Assembly: GCA_903873415.1 (NCBI GenBank) | Contig: CAIQOK010000048.1 | Coordinates: 1-42,103 of the forward strand | DNA: 42,103 nucleotides | Direction of reading: 5' to 3' | DNA from: an uncultured Verrucomicrobiota bacterium | GTDB lineage: Bacteria; Verrucomicrobiota; Verrucomicrobiia; Limisphaerales; CAIQOK01 | In this document: positions 5,104-23,486 of the stretch, piece by piece | Layout of the letters: each line of letters opens with the position of its first letter | Numbering within the stretch: the first letter of the stretch is position 1 | Position numbers and translations under genes: made by a program | The notes under the pieces: model-generated | Told to the model about the DNA's origin: nothing | What the model saw: the letters and a program-made list of their open reading frames with translations, nothing else | The model's database searches: none

Positions 5104-6405
5104 ATGGATGTAAAACTGCCGCGTCTCGGTGAAGGTGCTGATTCGGGTGTCGTGGTCACCGTCTTTGTGAAAGAAGGCGATACCGTGGTGCTGGATCAGG
5201 CCGTAATGGAACTTGAAAACGAAAAGGCTGTCGCCTCGATTCCCTCCACGGGTGCGGGCGTGGTCCAGAAAGTCCATGTGAAAGTGGGCGATCGGATCAG
5301 CGTAGGCCAGCGTATTTTTTCCCTGACTGAGGCGGGTGCCGTCGGGGTTGTAGCACCTGCGGCGCCGGCACCGGCTGCTGCCGTCAAGCGCGCCGCGCCG
5401 TCCGCTCCGACCCCGGTAGCCGCCGCCGAGCAGACCGGCGTCGAGGATTTCAGTGGGACGGAATTGCCTGAGTTGGATTCCAATGCCGCGCCGGTGGCGT
5501 CCCCCTCGCTGCGGCGCATGGCCCGTGAGCTTGGCTTGGACCTTAGCAAGGTCCGTGGCAGCCAAGCCGGGGGGCGCATTATTCTCAGCGATGTGCGCGC
5601 TTATCTGGCCCGGTTGCAGAGGCCCGTTGTGCCGCCCCAAGCCGCCCCAGCCCCCGCGGTCGCGGCCAAAACGCCGTCCGAATCCATTGATTTCTCAAAG
5701 TGGGGCCCCGTCACTAAGAAGTCGGTCACTCCGTTGCGTCAGGTCATTGCCCGGCGGATGTGGGAGAACTGGAATGCCATTCCGCATGTCACCCAGTTCG
5801 ACGACGCGGACTTCACCCGGCTCAATGAGCTGCGGAAGAAATTCGCCCCTGATTACCAGGCCAAGGGCGTCAAGCTCACCTTGACCCCCTTGGTGCTCAA
5901 GGCGCTGGTGGCAACACTCAAAAAGCACCCCGTTTTCAACGCCAGCCTCGACGAAGCGGCCAACGAGATTGTCCTCAAGGATTATTTCCACATCGGCATC
6001 GCGGTGGACACCGAGCATGGGTTGATCGTGCCGGTCCTGCGGGATGTGGACAAGAAAAGTCCTCTGGAGCTGGGTAAGGAATTGGAAGTGCTTGCCTCCA
6101 AGGCGCGCGACCGGAAGGTGTCCGGCGAGGAGCTCAAGGGTGGAACCTTTACCATTTCCAATCAGGGCGCCATCGGCGGGGGGCACTTCACCCCGATCGT
6201 CAACAAACCGGAAGTGGCGATTCTCGGTCTGGGCCGCGGCGCTTTGCAACCGGTTGTGCGTGAGGGCAAGGTGGAGGTTCGCATGATGACGCCGCTGGGA
6301 TTGAGCTACGATCACCGGGTGATAGACGGCGGGAGTGCGGCCCGGTTCATTGTGGACCTGGTTGCCTCGCTGCAGGAGTTCCCCGAAGCCGCGGTAAAAA
6401 TTTAA
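5104..6405 (+). CDS. 2-oxoacid dehydrogenase E2 (dihydrolipoamide acyltransferase)
   Basis: A 433-residue E2, most likely of pyruvate dehydrogenase. Domain order: one lipoyl domain (residues 1-80, lipoyl Lys41 in ENEKAVA), an Ala/Pro-rich linker, the peripheral-subunit-binding domain (PSLRRMARELGLDLSKV, about 130-170), a second linker, then the catalytic acyltransferase core with the signature DHRVIDGG (His404, Asp408). I took the ATG at 5104 because the lipoyl domain begins directly there (MDVKLPRLGEG); the frame is open to 5038 but those residues do not match. The E3 gene follows 15 bases downstream. No E1 gene is adjacent, so it must be encoded elsewhere. No strong ribosome-binding site is seen. 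Confidence 0.93.
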   Translation: MDVKLPRLGEGADSGVVVTVFVKEGDTVVLDQAVMELENEKAVASIPSTGAGVVQKVHVKVGDRISVGQRIFSLTEAGAVGVVAPAAPAPAAAVKRAAPSAPTPVAAAEQTGVEDFSGTELPELDSNAAPVASPSLRRMARELGLDLSKVRGSQAGGRIILSDVRAYLARLQRPVVPPQAAPAPAVAAKTPSESIDFSKWGPVTKKSVTPLRQVIARRMWENWNAIPHVTQFDDADFTRLNELRKKFAPDYQAKGVKLTLTPLVLKALVATLKKHPVFNASLDEAANEIVLKDYFHIGIAVDTEHGLIVPVLRDVDKKSPLELGKELEVLASKARDRKVSGEELKGGTFTISNQGAIGGGHFTPIVNKPEVAILGLGRGALQPVVREGKVEVRMMTPLGLSYDHRVIDGGSAARFIVDLVASLQEFPEAAVKI

Positions 6406-6420
6406 CGACTCTTTATTTTC

Positions 6421-7836
6421 ATGGATTCAATCAAAACTGAATTAGTAGTGGTCGGGGCCGGCCCGGGCGGATATGCCGCGGCGTTCTACGCGGCGGATTT
6501 GGGCAGGAAAGTCCTGCTGATCGAGCGCGAACCCCGTCTGGGCGGCGTGTGTTTGAATCGCGGTTGCATCCCTTCCAAGGCGCTGCTCCATGCGACCCAC
6601 CAGATCACAGCCGCGCGCGACTCCGAGAGCCGCGGCATCACTTTCGCCGCACCCTCTATTGATCTCTCCAAGCTGCGCGCATGGAAGGAATCCATCCTGA
6701 CCAAGCTGGGGGGCGGGATCGCCCAGTTGGCCAAGATGCGCGGTGTGCAGGTCATTCAGGGCCGCGCCTATTTTGAAGGCTCGCAATCGCTGCGGGTCGA
6801 GACCCCGCAAGGTCAGCAGTTTGTTTCCTACGAGAACGCCATTATCGCCGCCGGTTCGATCCCGGCATTGCCCAAGGCCTTTGATTTGGGCAATCCGCAG
6901 GTCATGACTTCCACTGAAGCCCTTGAGATTGAGGATATTCCGCAAAGCCTGCTGGTGGTGGGCGGCGGGTATATCGGCATGGAGATGGGGACCGTTTATG
7001 CCGCCTTGGGCAGTCAGGTGACCGTGGTCGAGGCCATGGACAATATTCTGGCGGGAGCGGATCCCGATCTGGCCCGACCGGTTCTGGCTCATGCCAAGAA
7101 AATGTTCAAGGAAATCCGGCTTAAGGCGAAGGTTTTGAAAATGTCCACCGCCGGCAAGCAGATCAAAGTCGAAGTGGAATTTGACGGCAAGAAAGTCGTT
7201 GAACTCTACGATCGTGTGCTCGTCTCCGTCGGGCGTGTGCCGAACAGCTCCGACATGGGGCTGGAAAACACCGGGATCAAGCTGGACGAGAAGGGTTTTA
7301 TCAAGGTGAACTCCAGCCAGCAAACCGACGATCCCCATATTTTCGCCATCGGCGACATTGCCGGGGGGATCATGCTGGCCCACAAGGCGCACAAAGAAGC
7401 CCGGATTGCAGTCGAGGTGCTTCATGGGGAGAGCAGCGTGTTTGATAAAATCATCATCCCGGCCGTGGTCTTCACTGACCCGGAACTGGCGTGGTGCGGT
7501 TTGACCGAGGCTGAGGCCAAGGAGCGGGGCATCGCCTATGAAGTCTCCAAATTCCCTTGGTCAGCCTCGGGTCGGGCACTTTCGTTCGACCGCACGGATG
7601 GCGTCACCAAGATGCTGATTGATCCGGAGACGGAGCGGGTGTTGGGTGTGGGGATTTGCGGGGCGGGGGCCGGAGAACTGATTGCCGAAGCCGTGCTCGC
7701 GCTGGAGATGGGGGCCACCGCCCAAGACATCGCTCTTTGCGTGCATCCGCATCCCACGCTTTCCGAGACCTTGATGGAATGCGCCGAGGCGTTTTATGGG
7801 CACGCCACGCATACGATCGCCAAGAAACGGGCTTAA
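6421..7836 (+). CDS. lpdA: dihydrolipoamide dehydrogenase (E3)
   Basis: A 471-residue FAD/NAD-dependent disulfide oxidoreductase that re-oxidises the dihydrolipoyl group of E2. Visible elements are the FAD-binding GAGPGGYAAAFYAADLG, the redox-active disulfide CLNRGC (Cys44 and Cys49), the NAD-binding GGGYIGMEMG, the second FAD motif IFAIGDIAGG, and the C-terminal active-site HPHPTLSE (His444 and Glu449). Length and motifs match typical LpdA. It forms a two-gene unit with the E2 gene and is followed, 175 bases on, by a strong intrinsic terminator. The same E3 could serve other complexes such as 2-oxoglutarate dehydrogenase or glycine cleavage. Confidence 0.96.
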   Translation: MDSIKTELVVVGAGPGGYAAAFYAADLGRKVLLIEREPRLGGVCLNRGCIPSKALLHATHQITAARDSESRGITFAAPSIDLSKLRAWKESILTKLGGGIAQLAKMRGVQVIQGRAYFEGSQSLRVETPQGQQFVSYENAIIAAGSIPALPKAFDLGNPQVMTSTEALEIEDIPQSLLVVGGGYIGMEMGTVYAALGSQVTVVEAMDNILAGADPDLARPVLAHAKKMFKEIRLKAKVLKMSTAGKQIKVEVEFDGKKVVELYDRVLVSVGRVPNSSDMGLENTGIKLDEKGFIKVNSSQQTDDPHIFAIGDIAGGIMLAHKAHKEARIAVEVLHGESSVFDKIIIPAVVFTDPELAWCGLTEAEAKERGIAYEVSKFPWSASGRALSFDRTDGVTKMLIDPETERVLGVGICGAGAGELIAEAVLALEMGATAQDIALCVHPHPTLSETLMECAEAFYGHATHTIAKKRA

Positions 7837-13848: not shown

Positions 13849-13914
13849 ACTCATTTGCGGTTGGGTTTGCCGGTGCCGGGAGCCGGGGCGGGCGGCCTGA
13901 TTGACTCATTTGCG
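13849..13914. repeat. 11-bp direct repeat in a divergent promoter region
   Basis: The sequence actcatttgcg occurs at 13849-13859 and again at 13904-13914, 55 bases apart, between the divergent genes starting at 13776 and 13979. The second copy overlaps a possible -35 hexamer TTGACT (13901-13906), with CTAAAT 15 bases further on. Paired operators are one reading; chance duplication is the other. Confidence 0.4.
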
Positions 13915-13978
13915 CCATTGCCTAAATCCCATCGATCGGCTACCCAATCATCTCATCAATCAACGGTTTCAATTGCGA

Positions 13979-16900
13979 ATGGAAAAGTTCAAAAGCCTGT
14001 CCGTCGTTGCCTGGGGATGTTTGCTGCTTTGCCTGGCTTCGCCCGCTGTCGGGGCCGGGAGCATCAGCTACAACCGCGATATACGCCCGATTCTTTCCGA
14101 CGACTGTTTTCACTGTCACGGTCCCGACCAGAAGACGCGCAAGGGGAAGTTCCGGCTGGATGTGCGCGAGGATGCGGTAGCCAAGGGGGCCATCGTGCCC
14201 GGAAAGCCCGGGGAAAGCGGAATCATCCAACGGCTGCTGACCAAGGATCCGGAGGAATTGATGCCGCCTCCGGAGGCGCACAAGACCGTCACTTCTGCCC
14301 AGCGGGACATGTTGCGCCGTTGGATTGCCGCCGGTGCGAAATACGAGAAACACTGGGCCTATGTCCCTCCAGTCAAACCCGTTCTGTCTTCGGATCGCGG
14401 TGCTGTTGACGCCCTCATCCGCCGGCGTTTGAATGAGGTGGGACTCAGGCCTGCATTGCCGGCCGACCGCCGGACTCTGGCGCGCCGGCTTTACTTTGAT
14501 TTGATTGGCCTGCCTCCGGGCGCCGGGGATGTGGAGGCCTTTGTGCAGGACAAGTCGCCCGCAGCCTTTGCCGGGCTGGTGGAAAAACTGCTCGCCTCTC
14601 CGCAGTTTGGCGAGCGGATGGCCATTGGCTGGCTGGACGTCGTCCGCTTTGCCGACACCATCGGCTATCATTCCGATAATCCTCGCAATGTCTGGCCCTA
14701 TCGGGACTATGTCATCAAGTCGTTCAACCAAAACAAACCCTTTGACCAGTTCACCCGGGAACAGTTGGCGGGGGATCTGTTGCCGGGCAGCACGGCCGAG
14801 CAGAGGGTGGCCTCATGTTTCAATCGACTCCTTCTGACCACCGAGGAGGGCGGCGCACAATCCAAGGATTATGAGGCCCGCATGCTGACCGACCGGGTGC
14901 GGGCGGTCAGTGCGGTATGGCTGGGCCAGACCGTGGGTTGCGCCCAGTGCCATGACCACAAGTTTGACCCGATCAAGCAGCGGGATTTTTACGCGCTCGG
15001 CGCATTCTTTGCCGACATAGAAGAACCCATTATTGGACGCAGAGAGTCGGGTCTGCTGGTGCCGGATGAAAAGCAGGTAGCCGAGCTTGCGCGGCTGCAG
15101 GCCGAAGTCAGGAGTCTGGAAACCGGTTTTAATTCCCCCCATCCCGAATGTGAGGAGGCGTTCATCAAATGGAATCGTGAACAATCCCAGATTGCTCTGG
15201 AGGACAGCCGCTGGACTTCTCTGACTCCCGCCCGCGCGGTGGCTGCCGGGGGGGACAAACTGCAGATACAGTCTGACCAATCCGTTCTCGTCGCCGGAAA
15301 AAAGAAGCCAGAGACGGACGTTTACACACTGGATCTGACCAATTTTCCGTCGGCGATCCAAGCCTTGCGCATTGAGGCACTGCCCTCCGAGTCGCTTCCT
15401 GGCAAAGGCCCCGGCCGGGCCGGGAACGGCAATTTCGTTTTGTCCCGCGTGCTGGCAAGTATCGAACACACCAACGGCGCGAGCGACCCGCTTCAATTCG
15501 TTTCCGCCCGCGCCAGCTTCGAACAATCCATGGCGGCGGACCAGACCCCCAACAAATTGTGGAGCGCCGCCTCGGTGATCGATCCCCAGGCCAAGGGCGA
15601 ATTCACCGGCTGGGCCGTTCTGCCCGAGGTCGCCAAACCACAACAAATCATTCTGGATTGCGGCCGGCTGCTGGCGTTGAACCGGGGCGACACCTTGAAG
15701 GTTGTTCTAGAGCAGAATCACGGCCACGGCAACCATACTCTGGGCCATTTCAGGCTTTCTGCCACCACCAACACGGAGGCACTCCGGGGTCCTTTTGTAT
15801 TCCCTCTCGCCAAGGAAATCGACGATGTCTTGGCCGTGCCTTCCGGCAAGCGCGACCAAGCCCAGAGGGACAGGGTGTGGGAGTATTTCAAGAAGCATTC
15901 TCCGGAGTTCGCGACGCTGCGCACGAATCTTGCCGGGGCTCGCAAGACTTTGACTGCCTATGAGGATTCCCTCCCGCACTGCCTGGTTTCCGTCACCAAC
16001 GCCCAGCCCAGAACGGTGCGGGTGTTGCCCCGGGGCAATTTCCTGGCGGACACCGGCGATATCATGCAGCCGGCCCTGCCTGCCTACCTTGCGGGGCCTG
16101 AAACGAAATCCGGCGGGCGCCGGTTGACCCGTCTCGATCTGGCCGACTGGCTGGTTTCCCGAGAAAACCCGCTCACCGCCCGCGTGGTGGTGAACCGGCT
16201 TTGGAAACAGTTCTTCGGCTGCGGCCTCTCCAAGGTGGTCGATGATCTGGGGGCGCAGGGGGAACTGCCGCCCAACCAGCCATTGCTCGACTGGCTGGCG
16301 TGTGAATTCATGGACAGCGGCTGGGATCTGAAGCACATGGTTCGCCTTATGGTAAACAGTCAGGCCTACCAGCAGACCTCGGTGTCCCCGAAAAAGCTTC
16401 GGGACCGCGATCCGCTCAACCGGGAGATAGCCGCGCAAAGCCGCTGGCGTCTGGATGCGGAGTTGGTCCGGGACAATGCGCTGGCGGTTTCCGGATTGCT
16501 GGTGGAGAAGATCGGCGGGCCCAGCACAAAGCCCTACCAGCCTGAGGGTTACTGGGAAAATCTGAATTTCCCGGCCCGCAGCTATGAGGCCAGCACCGGG
16601 CCGGATCAGTACCGGCGCGGACTCTATGCGTGGTGGCAGCGCTCCTATTTGCACCCGAGCCTGCAGGCCTTTGATGCGCCGACCCGGGAAGAATGCGCAG
16701 CCGAGCGCAACCGTTCCAACATCCCGCAGCAGGCCTTGGTGCTCTTGAACGACCCAACGTATGTGGAAGCCTCCCGTGCCTTGGCTGTCCGGATGTTGAA
16801 AGAGGGCGGGGCGGATCCGTCAACGCGACTTGCTTGGGCGTGGCGTCAGGTGCTTAACCGCACCCCGCGCCCTGATGAGATCAAATCCGTTCAGGCCTTG

Positions 16901-17068
16901 CTTGACAAGGAATTGGCCGAATATCGCGCTGATAAAACCGCGGCCCAAGCCTTGCTGAAAACCGGCCAAAACACCACGCCCCCGGAAAGCGATCCTGTGG
17001 AACTGGCGGCTTGGACCAATGTGGCCCGTGTCCTTTTGAATCTCCACGAAACCATCACCCGCTCCTAA
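13979..17068 (+). CDS. PSCyt1-DUF1549-DUF1553 (planctomycete cytochrome) protein
   Basis: A 1029-residue secreted multidomain protein. The ATG at 13979 gives a signal peptide (MEKFKSLSVVAWGCLLLCLASPAVGA). Next comes the PSCyt1 haem domain with CFHCH and GKFRLDVREDA, then DUF1549 (PSCyt2; about 150-370, RRLYFDLIGLPP, DVVRFADTIGYH, FDQFTREQLAGD, GCAQCHDHKFDP with a second CxxCH), a middle beta-rich insertion (about 400-640) and C-terminal DUF1553 (PSD1; RLDLADWLVSRENPLTARVVVNRLWKQ, about 700-980). Members are universal in Planctomycetes and common in Verrucomicrobiota, always paired with a DUF1501 protein, as here six bases downstream. Roles in extracytoplasmic polymer or glycan turnover have been suggested in general, but no biochemical function is established. 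Confidence 0.92.
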   Translation: MEKFKSLSVVAWGCLLLCLASPAVGAGSISYNRDIRPILSDDCFHCHGPDQKTRKGKFRLDVREDAVAKGAIVPGKPGESGIIQRLLTKDPEELMPPPEAHKTVTSAQRDMLRRWIAAGAKYEKHWAYVPPVKPVLSSDRGAVDALIRRRLNEVGLRPALPADRRTLARRLYFDLIGLPPGAGDVEAFVQDKSPAAFAGLVEKLLASPQFGERMAIGWLDVVRFADTIGYHSDNPRNVWPYRDYVIKSFNQNKPFDQFTREQLAGDLLPGSTAEQRVASCFNRLLLTTEEGGAQSKDYEARMLTDRVRAVSAVWLGQTVGCAQCHDHKFDPIKQRDFYALGAFFADIEEPIIGRRESGLLVPDEKQVAELARLQAEVRSLETGFNSPHPECEEAFIKWNREQSQIALEDSRWTSLTPARAVAAGGDKLQIQSDQSVLVAGKKKPETDVYTLDLTNFPSAIQALRIEALPSESLPGKGPGRAGNGNFVLSRVLASIEHTNGASDPLQFVSARASFEQSMAADQTPNKLWSAASVIDPQAKGEFTGWAVLPEVAKPQQIILDCGRLLALNRGDTLKVVLEQNHGHGNHTLGHFRLSATTNTEALRGPFVFPLAKEIDDVLAVPSGKRDQAQRDRVWEYFKKHSPEFATLRTNLAGARKTLTAYEDSLPHCLVSVTNAQPRTVRVLPRGNFLADTGDIMQPALPAYLAGPETKSGGRRLTRLDLADWLVSRENPLTARVVVNRLWKQFFGCGLSKVVDDLGAQGELPPNQPLLDWLACEFMDSGWDLKHMVRLMVNSQAYQQTSVSPKKLRDRDPLNREIAAQSRWRLDAELVRDNALAVSGLLVEKIGGPSTKPYQPEGYWENLNFPARSYEASTGPDQYRRGLYAWWQRSYLHPSLQAFDAPTREECAAERNRSNIPQQALVLLNDPTYVEASRALAVRMLKEGGADPSTRLAWAWRQVLNRTPRPDEIKSVQALLDKELAEYRADKTAAQALLKTGQNTTPPESDPVELAAWTNVARVLLNLHETITRS

Positions 17069-17074
17069 CCCGGC

Positions 17075-18526
17075 ATGAATCCGCATCCCGAACTCAGGCA
17101 GTTTCTGGCCCAGCGCCAGACCCGGCGCACTTTTCTCGGCCGCACTTCTCAGGGGATCGGCGCTTTGGCGCTGGCCTCCCTGCTCAACCCGCGCCTCCTG
17201 GCCGCCTCCTCCGCGGCCCGCAAGGACAAGTGGACCGGCGCAGCCTATCCGCTCGATTATCCGCAGAAGGTCAAGCGTGTCATCTGGCTGAGCATGGCCG
17301 GAGGCCCCTCGCACTTGGAGACTTTTGATTACAAGCCCAAGCTCACTAAAATGCACGGGGAGGCCATGCCCGCTTCCTTCACCGAGGGCAAGCAAATCGC
17401 CCAGTTGCAGGGCCAGAAGCTGGTCTGTTTCGGCCAGCAGCATGGGTTCAAAAAATTCGGCCGTAATGGCACCGAGATATGCGAGCTGTTCCCCCACATC
17501 GGCTCGGTCTTGGACGATATCTGTCTGATCCGCTCGATGACCACCGAAGCGATCAATCACGATCCGGCCCATATGTTCATGAACACCGGTTCACAGATTG
17601 CCGGACGCCCCAGCATGGGGGCTTGGTCCACTTACGGCCTGGGCACCGTTTCGGAAAACTTGCCAGGCTTTGTGGTGCTGACTTCCCTTGGCCGCGGCGG
17701 ACAGAACCAGCCCATCGCCGCTCGCCAGTGGGCTGCCGGCTTGCTCCCCAGCCGGTTTCAGGGCGTTCACCTGCGCGGCAAGGGGGATCCCGTTCTTTAT
17801 CTCAGCACCCCCTCCGGCGTCACCCACACCCAGCAAAAGGATGTGGTCGACACCATCAATGCCATCAACGCCAAATACGACACGATCGTGGACGACCCGG
17901 AGATTGCGACGCGAATCGTGCAATACGAGATGGCTTTCAAGATGCAGACCAGCGTGCCGGAGTTGATGGATATCAAACCGGAGGGTGCCAAGACGCTGGA
18001 ACTCTATGGATGCAAGCCCGGTGACGGATCGTTTGCATCAAACTGCCTGCTGGCCCGCCGGCTTGCCGAACGGGGCGTCCGATTTATCCAGCTTTATCAC
18101 AAGGATTGGGACCATCATGGCGGGTTGAAGGACGGCATCAAGTTCAAGGCCGAGGAAATCGACCGTGCCTGCATGGCCCTGATTACCGATTTAAAGCAGC
18201 GGGGCATGTTTGAGGACACGCTGATTGTGTGGGCTGGTGAATTCGGGCGCACTCCGATGAGCCAGGGCGGTGACGGTCGGGACCATCATAACGCCGGGTT
18301 CAGCATTTGGCTGGCCGGCGGAGGCGTGAAGCCGGGCATGGTTTACGGCGCCACCGACGAGCTGGGCTATGCCGCCGTTGAAAACCCCATCGACGTCCAT
18401 GATCTGCACGCAACGATGCTCCGGCTGATGGGCGTTGAGCACAAGAAACTTTCGGTGAAGTTTCAGGGCTTGGACGTGCGGCTTACGGGAATCGCCGGCA
18501 AGACTATCGATGGCATCTTGACCTGA
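17075..18526 (+). CDS. DUF1501 protein with Tat signal, sulfatase-like fold
   Basis: A 483-residue protein with twin-arginine motif RRTFLGRTSQG (Arg17-Arg18) and hydrophobic stretch GALALASLL. Alkaline-phosphatase-superfamily-like pieces follow: VIWLSMAGGPSHLETFDYKPKL, DICLIRSMTTEAINHDPAHMFMNTG, FIQLYHKDWDHHGGLKDG, DTLIVWAGEFGRTPMSQGGDGRDHHN and IDVHDLHATMLRLMGVEHKKL. These correspond to the metal-binding Asp and His positions of sulfatase-type enzymes. It is the standard partner of the DUF1549/DUF1553 protein and starts six bases after it, so the two form an operon. Enzymatic activity has not been demonstrated for this family to my knowledge. Confidence 0.92.
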   Translation: MNPHPELRQFLAQRQTRRTFLGRTSQGIGALALASLLNPRLLAASSAARKDKWTGAAYPLDYPQKVKRVIWLSMAGGPSHLETFDYKPKLTKMHGEAMPASFTEGKQIAQLQGQKLVCFGQQHGFKKFGRNGTEICELFPHIGSVLDDICLIRSMTTEAINHDPAHMFMNTGSQIAGRPSMGAWSTYGLGTVSENLPGFVVLTSLGRGGQNQPIAARQWAAGLLPSRFQGVHLRGKGDPVLYLSTPSGVTHTQQKDVVDTINAINAKYDTIVDDPEIATRIVQYEMAFKMQTSVPELMDIKPEGAKTLELYGCKPGDGSFASNCLLARRLAERGVRFIQLYHKDWDHHGGLKDGIKFKAEEIDRACMALITDLKQRGMFEDTLIVWAGEFGRTPMSQGGDGRDHHNAGFSIWLAGGGVKPGMVYGATDELGYAAVENPIDVHDLHATMLRLMGVEHKKLSVKFQGLDVRLTGIAGKTIDGILT

Positions 18527-18578
18527 AGCGTTGCGGCTCATCTCAACTTTTGGTTGTCACAGCAGAGGTGCTAATCCA

Positions 18579-19274
18579 GTGAAATTCCTGACTTTGCTTG
18601 CCTGTTTTGCCGGGCTGTGCCGCGCGCTGGCGGCCCCGGAATTGTTATTGCCGGGCGACTCGATGTCGGCTTGGCGCGACTCCCGCGGGTGGATGACGGC
18701 CTGCCGGGTGGCGCTGGTCCAAACCGGCGGCCAACAATTCGTGATTGCCCCTGGGGCGGGAATCCTGGTCAACGGCGAGCAGGGACGGGCGGCAGATCTT
18801 GTCAGCCGTGAGGTGTTTGGAGACGCCCAGTTCCATGTGGAGTTTTGCATCCCGCGGCATTCGAACTCCGGCGTTTATCTCATGGGCCGCTACGAGGTCC
18901 AAATCTACGATAGTTTCGGCGTGGTGAAGGACAAGTATCCCGGCCTTGAGTGCGGCGGAATCTATCCCCGCTATGACAGCCAGCGGCATGAATACGAGGG
19001 GCATTCGCCAGCCGAGAATGTCAGCCGTCCCCCGGGCCTGTGGCAGTGTTTCGATATCACCTTTCAGGCCCCGCGTTTTGATGCCCACGGGCGCAAGACG
19101 GAGAATGCCCGGATCCTGAAGGTCATTCACAACGGCCGCTTGGTTCAGGAGAATGTCGAGTTGACCGGCCCCACGCATGGCGGTTACGAGGGCGAAAAAC
19201 CGGCGGGCCCGTTGCGACTGCAAGGGAACCACGGGCCCGTCGCCTATCGTAATCTGCGCATCACCCCCCTCTGA
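18579..19274 (+). CDS. DUF1080 (3-keto-disaccharide hydrolase-like) secreted protein, GTG start
   Basis: A 231-residue lectin-like beta-sandwich protein. I chose the GTG at 18579 over the ATG at 18531: it has a good ribosome-binding site (gaggtg eight bases upstream) and begins exactly at a signal peptide (KFLTLLACFAGLCRALAAPE). Family motifs are FHVEFCIPRHSNSGVYLMGRYEVQIYDSFG, CGGIYPRYD, and the C-terminal GPLRLQGNHGPVAYRNLRI. DUF1080 domains resemble concanavalin-like folds and some hydrolyse 3-keto-glycosides. That would fit the Tat-exported Gfo/Idh/MocA oxidoreductase nearby, since such oxidoreductases can generate 3-keto sugars. It follows the DUF1501 gene by 52 bases and probably belongs to the same transcript. 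Confidence 0.85.
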   Translation: MKFLTLLACFAGLCRALAAPELLLPGDSMSAWRDSRGWMTACRVALVQTGGQQFVIAPGAGILVNGEQGRAADLVSREVFGDAQFHVEFCIPRHSNSGVYLMGRYEVQIYDSFGVVKDKYPGLECGGIYPRYDSQRHEYEGHSPAENVSRPPGLWQCFDITFQAPRFDAHGRKTENARILKVIHNGRLVQENVELTGPTHGGYEGEKPAGPLRLQGNHGPVAYRNLRITPL

Positions 19275-19525: not shown

Positions 19526-20185
19526 GTGCAAACCAGTCTGTCATGGATTGAAGCGGCCCGTACCGTGAATTGGGGCGGGGTCTTTTTTATCTGCTTGAGC
19601 GCCTATGCTTTGGGCTGCTTAACGGCGGGTTATTATCTGGTGCGGATGCTCACTGGGGGGGACTTGCGGGAGCTGGGCAGTCGAAGTGTGGGCGCGCGCA
19701 ACGTCCACCGCGTGCTGGGTAAAACGGGTTTTTGTCTGACAGTTCTGCTTGATTTTGGGAAGGGTTCCCTCGCGGTTTGGGCTGCGAAGCGGTTGGGTTT
19801 CGGAGTGTTTTCTGTTGATGTGGCCATGCTGGCGGTTGTTGCCGGCCACATCTGGCCGGGGCAACTGCGGTTTCGCGGCGGTAAGGGCATGGCCACTGCC
19901 TTGGGCGGATTGCTTCTATGGGAGCCTCTGCTACCGATGGTCTTTGTTGTTTTGTTTCTCGTTTTTTGGGTGATACGCCGGCGGAGCGTTCCGGCCGGCC
20001 TGCTCGCGCTGGCCATACTCCCGCTGGCGGAGCCTTGGTTGAGGGCCGGTTTGCAACCGTTCATAACTGCCTGCCTTCTATCCACTCTGGTGCTCGCGGC
20101 CCACCGCAGAAATTTGGCCGAGGAGTTTTCCAGGTTGCTGGCCTCACATCAAAGCCATCTTCCACCGCACCAAAGACCCTCATGA
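19526..20185 (+). CDS. plsY: PlsY-type glycerol-3-phosphate acyltransferase, divergent, GTG start
   Basis: A 219-residue membrane protein of the PlsY family, which transfers an acyl group from acyl-phosphate to glycerol 3-phosphate. Several membrane helices are visible (FFICLSAYALGCLTAGYYLV, VDVAMLAVVAGHIWPG, PLLPMVFVVLFLVFWVI, FITACLLSTLVLAAH). Family motif 2/3 is well kept (GHIWPGQLRFRGGKGMATALGG). Motif 1, normally GSGN.GATN, here reads GSRSVGARNVHRVLG, so two highly conserved positions differ. The gene starts with GTG and its stop overlaps the next start as ATGA, so it is translationally coupled to the GNAT-aminotransferase fusion. It may be the housekeeping PlsY, but the altered motif and partner suggest a specialised acyltransferase. 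The substrate is unproven. Confidence 0.83.
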   Translation: MQTSLSWIEAARTVNWGGVFFICLSAYALGCLTAGYYLVRMLTGGDLRELGSRSVGARNVHRVLGKTGFCLTVLLDFGKGSLAVWAAKRLGFGVFSVDVAMLAVVAGHIWPGQLRFRGGKGMATALGGLLLWEPLLPMVFVVLFLVFWVIRRRSVPAGLLALAILPLAEPWLRAGLQPFITACLLSTLVLAAHRRNLAEEFSRLLASHQSHLPPHQRPS

Positions 20186-21825
20186 ACAGCCGAGCGCCGT
20201 TGATTTTCAAATTTGCCACCGAGGACTGGGAGGTTGAGCAGATTCACCGGCTCAACTATAAAACCTTCGTCGCGGAGATTCCGCAGCATGAGGCTCCGCC
20301 GACGCCGCGGCTTGTGGACCGGTTCCATGGCGAGAACACCTATCTGATCTGCCTGGACGGGGCCCGGCTGGCCGGGATGCTAGCGGTGCGGGGAGCGCGC
20401 CCCTTTTCACTGGATCAGAAGCTGGAGCGGCTGGATTCGCATCTGCCGTCTGGGCGGAGGCTTTGTGAGGTGCGGCTCTTGGCGGTGGAGAAAAGATTTC
20501 GTGGAGCGCAGGTGTTACAAGGTCTGCTGGCGCTGCTCTGGCAGCACAGTATGGAGAGAGATTACGATCTGGCGGTGATTTCCGGCACGACCCGGCAGCT
20601 CCGGTTGTATGAGCATCTGGGTTTCGTGCCGTTCGGACCCTTGCTGGGCAGCGGCGAGGCGAGGTTTCAACCGATGTACGTCACGCTGGAAAGTTTCGAG
20701 CAGGCCGCACGCGGGTTTATAGGGTCCGCTCCGGCCCGCTCCTTCCGCGCCGGGGCGGTGAACTTCCTGCCCGGCCCGGTCTCTCTGCGGCCGGGTGTTC
20801 GGCGGGCCTTTGAACAGGCGGCCGAGTCTCATCGCATGGAGAGTTTCCGGATTGGTTTTTCCGCGACCCGCAAGATGCTTTGCGAATTGACCCGCTCGCA
20901 GAACGTCCAGCTTTTTCTGGGCTCTGGCACGCTGGCCAACGAGGTGGTCGGGGCCAGGCTTTCGCTGGAGCCTGCCTGCGGTCTTGTGCTCAGCAACGGG
21001 GAGTTTGGCCAGAGGTTGATGGACCACGCGCGGCGGTGGCGTCTGAAGTTTGCCGCGTTGGAATTTCCCTGGGGACAAGCGCTGGATCTGCGCGAAGTGC
21101 GCCGCGCTTTGGAACACCCCTCTGCGCCCGAATGGTTGTGGTGCGTCCATTGCGAGACGTCCAGCGGCGTGCTCAATGATCTGGGTGCGCTCCGGGATTT
21201 GTGCGCGGAATTCCAGGTCAAGCTCTGCCTGGACTGCATGAGTTCGGTCGGCACGGTCGGGGTGGATCTTTCCGGGGTTTATCTGGCCTCCTGCACCAGC
21301 GGCAAGGGGCTGCGCTCCTATGCCGGCATTGCGATGGTGTTTCATCAAACCGGCGCGGCGGAGGGCTCGCAACAGCTGCCCCGTTACCTTGACCTCGCAT
21401 ATTATGACCAGCAGCAGGGGGTTCCGTTTACGTTTTCCTCCAACCTGCTGCACGCCCTGCACGCGGCCCTGCGGCATGTTGATTGGGAGCGGCGCTTTGC
21501 GGACACGCGCAAGCTCTCGGCCCAACTGCGCAGCGGCCTGGAGGAGTCGGGCTTCAGCCTGGTGGGCGTGGGGGCGGAAACATCCCCGGCCGTGACAACG
21601 CTGGATCTGCCGCCGGAACTCAACTCGGTCAGGCTGGGGCACGAGATTCAGGAGTGCGGCTACCTGGTCAGTTGCAACAGTGACTACCTGCGGCAGCGGA
21701 ACTGGATTCAAATCTGTCTGATGGGTGAATGCAGTCCGGGTAAAGTCGCCGGTTTGATTCAGGCGCTCAGAAAGGCCGTCCGGTCGCGGAATCCCAGCAG
21801 GCGTACGGCGGCAGTCGAATGTTGA
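20182..21825 (+). CDS. fusion protein: GNAT acyltransferase + class V PLP aminotransferase (2-aminoethylphosphonate transaminase-like)
   Basis: A 547-residue two-domain enzyme. Residues 1-175 resemble a GNAT/autoinducer-synthase-type acyltransferase (IHRLNYKTFVAEIPQ, RLVDRFHGENTYLICLDG, LCEVRLLAVEKRFRGAQVLQGLL, YEHLGFVPFG). Residues 190-530 form a class V aminotransferase: NFLPGPVSLRPGVRRAF, LFLGSGTLANE, LSNGEFGQRLM, VHCETSSGVLNDL, LDCMSSVGTVGVD (PLP Asp351) and SGKGLRSYAGIA (PLP Lys375). These motifs run parallel to PhnW-type 2-aminoethylphosphonate transaminases and alanine/serine-glyoxylate aminotransferases. The ATG at 20182 overlaps the plsY stop (ATGA). One protein could transaminate a keto compound and N-acylate the amine it makes; with PlsY beside it, an amino-lipid product is plausible but inferred. 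The longer frame upstream is plsY shadow. Confidence 0.87.
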   Translation: MNSRAPLIFKFATEDWEVEQIHRLNYKTFVAEIPQHEAPPTPRLVDRFHGENTYLICLDGARLAGMLAVRGARPFSLDQKLERLDSHLPSGRRLCEVRLLAVEKRFRGAQVLQGLLALLWQHSMERDYDLAVISGTTRQLRLYEHLGFVPFGPLLGSGEARFQPMYVTLESFEQAARGFIGSAPARSFRAGAVNFLPGPVSLRPGVRRAFEQAAESHRMESFRIGFSATRKMLCELTRSQNVQLFLGSGTLANEVVGARLSLEPACGLVLSNGEFGQRLMDHARRWRLKFAALEFPWGQALDLREVRRALEHPSAPEWLWCVHCETSSGVLNDLGALRDLCAEFQVKLCLDCMSSVGTVGVDLSGVYLASCTSGKGLRSYAGIAMVFHQTGAAEGSQQLPRYLDLAYYDQQQGVPFTFSSNLLHALHAALRHVDWERRFADTRKLSAQLRSGLEESGFSLVGVGAETSPAVTTLDLPPELNSVRLGHEIQECGYLVSCNSDYLRQRNWIQICLMGECSPGKVAGLIQALRKAVRSRNPSRRTAAVEC

Positions 21826-22107: not shown

Positions 22108-22482
22108 CTAGTCCCCGCTGCGCACCGCCCACCCGGCTTGGACTAGGGCCTTGTAGCCGCCGATGACGGAGGAGACCTTCCGGAAACCCATTTTCCCGGC
22201 GGCTTCGGCCGTCAGCGCGGAGCGGTAGCCGCCGCCGCAATACATGAGGATTTCCGTGTCGGGGTCGGGGAAGTGTTTTTCCAGATCGCGTTCCAAAATC
22301 CCTTTGCCAAGATGAATAGCCCGCTCCGCATGGCCAGCCGCCCATTCGTGGTCTTCACGCACATCCAGCAGCACGGCGGCGGGATTGGCGCTTAGCCGGG
22401 TAAGAGCCTGATCCGGGGATACTTCGACGACGTGTTGCCTGGCATCGTTGACCAGCTTTAAAAATCCAGGTGAATGATCCAT
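22108..22482 (-). CDS. rhodanese-like domain protein
   Basis: A 124-residue single rhodanese domain. Motifs seen are LLDVREDHEWAAGHAERAIHLGKG (CH2A-like opening) and the active-site loop YCGGGYRSAL with catalytic Cys82, followed by MGFRKVSSVIGGYKALVQAGW. Such stand-alone proteins carry a persulfide on the loop cysteine and move sulfur or act in redox signalling. A GG-rich, six-residue active loop starting with Cys fits a sulfurtransferase rather than a Cdc25-type phosphatase. It is divergent from the EamA permease gene (72 bases between starts). The stretch 21826-22107 downstream of the fusion gene shows no supportable gene. Confidence 0.87.
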   Translation of the reverse strand: MDHSPGFLKLVNDARQHVVEVSPDQALTRLSANPAAVLLDVREDHEWAAGHAERAIHLGKGILERDLEKHFPDPDTEILMYCGGGYRSALTAEAAGKMGFRKVSSVIGGYKALVQAGWAVRSGD

Positions 22483-22553
22483 ACGATCACCTTAGTTTTT
22501 CAGTTGTGCGGGTCAAACATATTTACTTTGGGATCTCTGCCGGATCGGGTTTA

Positions 22554-23486
22554 ATGCGGTGCGTGTTCTGGAAGAAAACCGACATTGTGCTCGCGTTGAG
22601 CCTGGTTTTTGCCGTGTTTTTATGGGGCGGCAACAATTGCGCCACAAAACTCATCATTACCACTTGGCCGCCGGCCTGGATCGGGTCGACCCGGTTTCTC
22701 GGGGCGGGCGCGATCCTGCTGGTGCTGCTGCGCTGGAGCGGGTGGTTTGGACCATACCGCCCTTTGCCGCCTGGTTTGGGCCGGGAACTGTGGTGGCGCG
22801 GGGGATTAAGTCTGGCGGCGTATCTGGTCGTTTTCAACTGGGCACTGCGCCTGACCGCGGTGTCACATGTCGCTCTTTATCTGGGAGCTTCGCCGGTCTG
22901 GGCGCTGGCCTGGGAGGGGCGGCCTGAGAATGGTTTTAGGGCGCTGCCGCGCTATGGCGCCGCATTGCTGGCGCTGGCCGGAGTGTTTGTGCTGTTCGTG
23001 CCGGCGCTCAATTCCGCCCGCGCCCACTGGGTGGGAGAGATTCTTGGATTGCTGGCAAGTTTGCTGTGGACACTTTACGGGCGTCAATGCCGCCATTTCA
23101 GGTCGCGCCTTTCCGGGGTGGAAATCTCGGCGCACACGATGGCCTATGCCGGCTTGACGCTGCTGCCCTTGGCCTGCCTGGAAATCCTCCGGTCCCGTCT
23201 GGTCTGGCGCACAGACGTGGTGTTGGTTCAGGTCTATTGCGTGCTGGCCGGAGGGGTGACGGCCTATTGCATCTGGAATCACGCGCTGAGCCGCTGGCCG
23301 GCCAGTCAGGTGCTCCTTTTCAACAATCTGATTCCACTGAGCACCATGACTTGGGCTTGGTTCTGGCTGCGCGAACCCGTCACGCCCACCTTTTGGCTCG
23401 CCATGGTTTTGATTGTGCTTGGAGTCCTTCTTGGCCAGGCAAAATGGCAGCGATGGATCGCACCAGTCAGTGTGCCCGCGGAGTGA
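22554..23486 (+). CDS. EamA/DMT-superfamily permease
   Basis: A 310-residue integral membrane protein with about ten hydrophobic segments in two repeats, e.g. IVLALSLVFAVFLWGGNN, STRFLGAGAILLVLLRW, GLSLAAYLVVFNWALRLTAV, HVALYLGASPVWALAW, YGAALLALAGVFVLFVPAL, ILGLLASLLWTLYG, LLFNNLIPLSTMTWAWFWL, and FWLAMVLIVLGVLLGQ. The early FLWGGNNCATK and the second-half LLFNNLIPLSTM...EP are typical of EamA exporters of metabolites or amino acids. I took the ATG at 22554 (RCVFWKKTD then first helix); the frame is open to 22470 but that overlaps the divergent rhodanese start. The substrate is unknown. Confidence 0.87.
   Translation: MRCVFWKKTDIVLALSLVFAVFLWGGNNCATKLIITTWPPAWIGSTRFLGAGAILLVLLRWSGWFGPYRPLPPGLGRELWWRGGLSLAAYLVVFNWALRLTAVSHVALYLGASPVWALAWEGRPENGFRALPRYGAALLALAGVFVLFVPALNSARAHWVGEILGLLASLLWTLYGRQCRHFRSRLSGVEISAHTMAYAGLTLLPLACLEILRSRLVWRTDVVLVQVYCVLAGGVTAYCIWNHALSRWPASQVLLFNNLIPLSTMTWAWFWLREPVTPTFWLAMVLIVLGVLLGQAKWQRWIAPVSVPAE

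Follow-up and report, generated by a model that had tools for sequence, protein, structure and literature searches.

A PlsY paralogue conserved beside an N-acyltransferase–PLP enzyme fusion in at least seven bacterial phyla: a candidate amide/ester lipid module

In a 42,103-nucleotide stretch of DNA from an uncultured Verrucomicrobiota bacterium (contig CAIQOK010000048.1; hereafter the window), a gene for a divergent PlsY-family acyltransferase, PlsY′, overlaps a gene for a fusion of a GNAT N-acyltransferase domain with a class V PLP domain. We propose, with confidence that is evenly balanced, that the pair comprises an amine-making and N-acylating enzyme and a dedicated acyl-phosphate O-acyltransferase, which together would build a two-chain amide/ester lipid. 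The pair is carried by many mostly uncultured bacteria, and the conservation of such a module, complete with a PlsY paralogue of its own, across no fewer than seven phyla suggests a kind of bacterial membrane or signalling lipid that has gone undescribed. If this proposal is right, an amino- or amide lipid would have PlsY acyl-phosphate chemistry reserved for its synthesis, and amine formation and acylation would occur in one protein through the fusion of PLP and N-acyltransferase domains.

The plsY′ gene has a GTG start and encodes 219 aa (Table 1). Its product belongs to the PlsY family by its match to Pfam PF02660 (G3P_acyltransf; 4e-36, 125 bits against a cut-off of 24.1) and keeps the GGKG and GxxNxxR motifs of PlsY. 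Because its score of 116.8 bits lies below the 137.2-bit cut-off of the NCBI PlsY equivalog TIGR00023, we describe it as PlsY-like and withhold the housekeeping-enzyme label. The junction with the fusion gene, CTCATGAACAG, is an ATGA overlap, as the initial annotation had stated, and the three fusion motifs quoted there (GSGTLANE, VHCETSSGVLN, and SGKGLRSYAG) are all present. The proposed architecture, a GNAT/autoinducer-synthase-like domain joined to a class V domain, was likewise recovered with Pfam FeeM (residues 21-153) and an NCBIfam class V model (residues 195-532).

Table 1. Positions of the gene pair and of its domains and motif in the window
Feature	Position	Strand	Description
plsY′	19526..20185	+	membrane acyl-phosphate acyltransferase paralogue, PlsY family, divergent "GARN" subfamily
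GNAT–class V PLP fusion	20182..21825	+	547 aa; ATG at 20182, stop at 21825
GNAT domain, fusion N-terminus	20182..20721	+	residues ~1-180; predicted FeeM/LuxI-type N-acyltransferase fold
Class V (subgroup IV) PLP domain, fusion C-terminus	20764..21780	+	residues ~195-533
NWIQICLM motif with Gln510	21700..21723	+	fusion residues 507-514; invariant or almost invariant across 44 homologues

PlsY′ is a dedicated second PlsY paralogue. The window genome encodes another, canonical plsY on contig 93, and among 42 fusion-related genomes checked, nearly all of those with a linked PlsY′ have at least two PlsY proteins; we therefore rejected the idea that the linked gene is the sole, essential PlsY of its genome. 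Genomes from the same set whose fusion has no PlsY′ neighbor have one PlsY, and three draft genomes (G309, G317, and G319) have the linked copy only. The linked PlsY proteins fall on one side of a branch separating them from all canonical copies (SH-aLRT 98). When a profile of linked PlsY proteins was run against 241 Verrucomicrobiota genomes, the top 11 genes scored 159-259 bits and all 11 adjoin a fusion gene; the first canonical PlsY followed at 149 bits, a modest gap below 159 in a clean ranking.

A contig scan with the fusion as query identified 52 loci, mostly full length, at ~43-65% identity and all labelled as MAGs, from the Verrucomicrobiota, Planctomycetota, Acidobacteriota, Chloroflexota, Sumerlaeota, Omnitrophota, Myxococcota/Thermodesulfobacteriota, and other phyla. 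Across all non-identical fusion loci collected with enough upstream sequence, PlsY′ lies directly upstream of the fusion in 56 of 80 distinct loci from at least seven phyla, including Verrucomicrobiota (17/20), Planctomycetota (10/11), Chloroflexota (4/5), Acidobacteriota (1/5), and Myxococcota, Omnitrophota, and Thermomicrobiota (1/1 each). The fusion is thus neither peculiar to the window, being present at more than 50 loci, nor set beside unrelated genes. Distances among PlsY′ and fusion proteins co-vary (Mantel r 0.84; 0 of 2000 permutations). Chance pairing is ruled out because the pair is conserved across phyla, and PlsY′ is exclusive to fusion loci in the 241 genomes; both findings support the dedicated, coupled pathway that had been suggested from the window. 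PlsY′ is not an obligatory partner of the fusion, since ~30% of fusion loci (24/80) are without it and the genomes counted among these have a single canonical PlsY. Prevalence is patchy: full-length fusions number 14 in 289 Verrucomicrobiota genomes. In the Planctomycetota sample, 16 of 294 genomes gave matches to the fusion, some of them incomplete or diverged, and the corresponding figures are 8 of 247 for the Acidobacteriota and 2 of 251 for the Chloroflexota sample. In three loci of the Acidobacteriota sample (L197, L198, and L199), the gene after the fusion, which here lacks PlsY′, by eye resembles one for a polyphosphate kinase 2 family protein.

The pair is conserved across phyla, whereas its flanking genes are not: apart from PlsC/Aas-type genes, clustering of gene neighbors returned lineage synteny only. 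Genes for PlsC or LplT-Aas-like acyltransferases adjoin only a small number of loci, seven in all. An LplT-Aas-like protein of ~1135 residues with MFS, PlsC, and AMP-ligase parts is encoded upstream of PlsY′ in L016, L032, and L033, directly so in the latter two and possibly with a short intervening ORF in L016; in L135, where PlsY′ is missing, a protein of the same make-up is encoded immediately before the fusion. A plsC gene precedes PlsY′ within a cmk-plsC-ispH-rpsA-like housekeeping cluster in L043 and L125, and in L023, which is without PlsY′, an AMP-ligase-ACP-PlsC protein follows the fusion. A MarR-like ORF, read by eye, precedes the LplT-Aas-like gene in L135, and a similar one precedes a split GNAT/PLP gene pair in L171.

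Natural dissections of the module suggest that the GNAT is its common core, with the PLP domain and PlsY′ as partners. In a Chloroflexota-sample genome (G795; L193, ~6290-7600), the gene after PlsY′ encodes a GNAT of this family that stands alone, the PLP domain being absent. The GNAT and PLP domains are encoded by two adjacent genes in L047 and in L171-L175 (genomes G011, G070, G002, G112, and G117), the latter with no PlsY′ nearby; in the split GNATs of L171-L175, ELHQH replaces the EIPQH motif of the fusions, with further divergence in G117. L178 (G223) encodes the GNAT alone, with no partner PLP domain. There (6283-7745), the gene is convergent with one that by eye is cdsA-like (phosphatidate cytidylyltransferase).

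The GNAT domain matches Pfam PF21926 (FeeM; 5.5e-9, 36.4 bits against a cut-off of 27) and PF13444 (Acetyltransf_5; 6e-6), and carries the signature motifs EIPQH, RPFSLD.K, CE.RLL, and QPM. BjaI was the first match of its sequence profile. In Foldseek searches with an AF2 model of the domain (pLDDT 91), LasI (TM 0.81), BjaI (0.78), and FeeM (0.75) were found among many GNATs. On the FeeM score and the predicted structure, the domain is of the autoinducer-synthase-type N-acyltransferase fold, and acyl-ACP-dependent N-acylation is predicted from that fold. The model's resemblance to LasI/BjaI/FeeM-type long-chain N-acyltransferases speaks against a domain that lacks an acyl-donor pocket. The model of the whole fusion (pTM 0.66) has a linker of pLDDT ~42, and the relative placement of the two domains in it is uncertain.

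Kinship with FeeM, BjaI, and LasI, together with the 24 fusion loci without PlsY′, would also suit a fusion that makes a soluble, signal-like N-acyl amino acid or amine, its PLP domain supplying or recycling the amine and PlsY′ channeling acyl groups without forming a second ester. We regard this reading as somewhat unlikely. A PlsY clade that is restricted to fusion neighbors and has kept its glycerol 3-phosphate (G3P) clamp argues instead for an acylated, phosphate-bearing product, as do the PlsC and LplT-Aas-like neighbors, and no LuxR-like or signalling gene was found beside the fusion loci, where the only such candidates are the MarR-like ORFs of L135 and L171.

To compare ligand-contacting residues, 48 PlsY′ and 31 canonical copies were mapped onto Aquifex PlsY (aaPlsY, 5XJ5), whose contacts have been published (PMC5700162). 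All four residues of the G3P phosphate clamp (Ser35, Arg45, Lys104, and Asn180) are present in the window PlsY′, and across the group Ser/Thr35 is found in 48/48, Arg45 in 47/48, Lys/Arg104 in 48/48, and Asn180 in 34/48. His92, the GGKG loop (GGxG), and His177 are retained in the window protein and mostly in the group. The sites that differ include position 41, where aaPlsY uses Thr to hold the acyl-phosphate carbonyl, and position 142, where it uses Ser to contact the 2-OH of G3P (PMC5700162). Position 41 is Arg or Lys in 37 of 48 PlsY′ but Thr in all 31 canonical copies; position 142 is neither Ser nor Thr in 46 of 48 PlsY′, commonly being Gly or Ala, but Ser or Thr in all 31 canonical copies. 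The window PlsY′ has R and G at these positions, and the canonical copy of the same genome T and S. Other changes in PlsY′ are Asn37, mostly to Ser, F97Q, and R176A. Across the PlsY family at large, Ser142 is just 53% conserved and Arg41 occurs in 3% (PMC5700162); the combination of changed sites therefore weighs more than any single one, and loss of Ser142 is suggestive rather than diagnostic. From these residues, we read PlsY′ as an enzyme that still uses acyl phosphate and an acceptor bearing a phosphate, but is probably altered near the donor carbonyl and near C2 of the acceptor.

The intact phosphate clamp, and the occurrence of N37S and S142A/G elsewhere in the PlsY family (PMC5700162), would also be expected of an ordinary G3P acyltransferase specific to a condition or chain and merely co-transcribed with a fusion that serves a different pathway. 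This seems distinctly improbable given that no PlsY′ without a fusion neighbor was found in the 241 genomes, that the pair and not its flanks is conserved across phyla, and that Arg or Lys at position 41 is so common in PlsY′ when Arg41 is so rare in the family as a whole.

The PLP domain gave 1.2e-37 with TIGR03301 (PhnW-AepZ; residues 195-532) but only 130 bits against the equivalog cut-off of 361, and 87 bits with PhnW TIGR02326 against a cut-off of 401. Its matches are subgroup IV transaminases (1iug, 7e7g, 1m32, and 1vjo). The Schiff-base Lys375 and Asp351, which pairs with the pyridine N, are invariant in 44 homologues, in keeping with a class V fold; the domain should bind PLP, and a degenerate, dead domain was rejected on this conservation. 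The substrate-carboxylate Arg of class V enzymes (AGT Arg360 type; PMC9340776, PMC9309667) corresponds to Gln510 in an NWIQ.CL motif. All 44 fusions have Gln here and four split relatives have Glu, whereas the 12 ordinary class V enzymes of the same phylum, one of them from the window genome, all have Arg; Glu takes the place of the Arg in the split class V enzymes of G011, G070, and G112. Because the Arg is replaced in all fusions, the domain is probably not an ordinary keto-acid or 2-aminoethylphosphonate (AEP) transaminase and would lack the PhnW/AGT-like recognition of an α-carboxylate or phosphonate. The PhnW-like chemistry suggested initially is thus not borne out. A PhnW or phosphonate-lipid pathway was rejected on the equivalog scores and the lost Arg, and no recurrent phosphonate gene cluster was found among the neighbors of fusion loci. 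Without the Arg, the usual amino donors (Glu, Ala) would also bind less well; transamination is therefore a step that we infer, with an uncertain donor. A different PLP reaction, such as a decarboxylation, condensation, or lyase reaction, might instead yield the amine for the GNAT, as replacement of the carboxylate Arg by Gln or, in split forms, Glu alongside intact cofactor residues could suggest; we consider this very improbable, the domain being closest overall to class V transaminases (TIGR03301; Foldseek 1iug and 7e7g).

In the pathway that we favor, that of a two-chain amide/ester lipid, the PLP domain would convert a carbonyl precursor, held otherwise than through the usual carboxylate contact, into an amine. 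The fused GNAT, judging from its fold, would transfer a long-chain acyl group to this amine, with acyl-ACP or acyl-CoA as the donor. PlsY′, on its homology and residues, would use acyl phosphate to add a second acyl group to a hydroxyl of a backbone that bears a phosphate. This could precede amine formation and N-acylation or come after them, and a PlsC or LplT-Aas-like enzyme may, in certain lineages, act beside PlsY′ or replace it. Two features together suggest a backbone with phosphate at C3 and a carbonyl or an amine at C2: PlsY′ keeps the clamp while its C2-side contacts vary, and the PLP domain has lost the carboxylate Arg. The candidate of best fit would be a C3-phosphate backbone with nitrogen at C2, derived from DHAP, acyl-DHAP, or serinol phosphate, and the product an amide analogue of lysophosphatidic or phosphatidic acid; transamination of DHAP has a precedent in RtxA (PMC3222319). 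In one specific version, DHAP or serinol phosphate would be acylated by PlsY′ and receive its C2 amine from the PLP domain, and N-acylation of that amine by the GNAT would give an amide-linked phosphatidic acid analogue; this version is tentative, and we rate it as unlikely. If true, many phyla, most of them uncultured, would be using the glycerolipid toolbox to make a ceramide-phosphate-like lipid.

The ornithine and glycine lipid pathways (OlsB/OlsA, OlsF, and GlsB/GlsA) likewise combine a GNAT N-acyltransferase with an O-acyltransferase to make a two-chain amide/ester lipid, and the same pairing of N- and O-acyltransferases is found here at the level of genes. Their O-acyltransferases are of the PlsC family, whereas the one described here is of the PlsY family, which uses an acyl phosphate donor; the GNAT here is FeeM/LuxI-like and PLP-fused, and its acceptor would be no known amino acid. 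FeeM and LuxI-type synthases (2g0b, 1ro5, and 5w8c) share the GNAT fold and Pfam family, making a long-chain acyl donor likely, but differ in being neither fused to a class V PLP domain nor coupled to a PlsY′, and in the signature EIPQH ... RPFSLD.K ... QPM of the present domain. PhnW and other class V aminotransferases (1m32, 7e7g, and 1vjo) share the fold, Schiff-base Lys, Asp, and phosphate-cup motifs but not the invariant Gln, and the PhnW equivalog cut-offs are far above the scores obtained here. The PntC-AEPT fusion (6pd1 and 6pd2) provides an earlier example of a PhnW-like domain joined to a tailoring enzyme, in that case one that acts in the synthesis of polar head groups, although its partner is a cytidylyltransferase rather than an N-acyltransferase and it is without a PlsY. 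Canonical PlsY (5xj5) shares with PlsY′ the fold family, phosphate clamp, and acyl-phosphate hole residues; PlsY′ differs as an extra copy in a separate clade with T41R, N37S, S142G/A, F97Q, and R176A. The N-terminal DHAP aminotransferase of RtxA, likened here by reaction, converts DHAP to serinol phosphate within a fused enzyme of rhizobitoxine synthesis but has no link to an acyltransferase (PMC3222319). In the open, as distinct from the subscription, literature, we found no published description of the PlsY′-fusion pairing or of an amide analogue of phosphatidic acid, and no published case of a PlsY dedicated to an amino- or amide lipid or of a PLP domain fused to an N-acyltransferase. The parts belong to known families and the combination appears to be new; we infer a module of the amino-lipid kind that is set apart from the ornithine-lipid pathway.

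Upstream of the pair, the window contains a tandem PVC-type cluster (13901-19274) of a PSCyt1-PSCyt2-PSD1 cytochrome (DUF1549/1553), a DUF1501 protein, and a 3-keto-disaccharide hydrolase (DUF1080); it likely serves surface or polysaccharide degradation, with no link to the lipid module. Downstream (22108-23486), a minus-strand rhodanese gene overlaps the start of a plus-strand EamA transporter gene, and this rhodanese/EamA pair or EamA alone recurs 3′ of the fusion in related Verrucomicrobiota (loci L003, L009, and L049) as lineage synteny.
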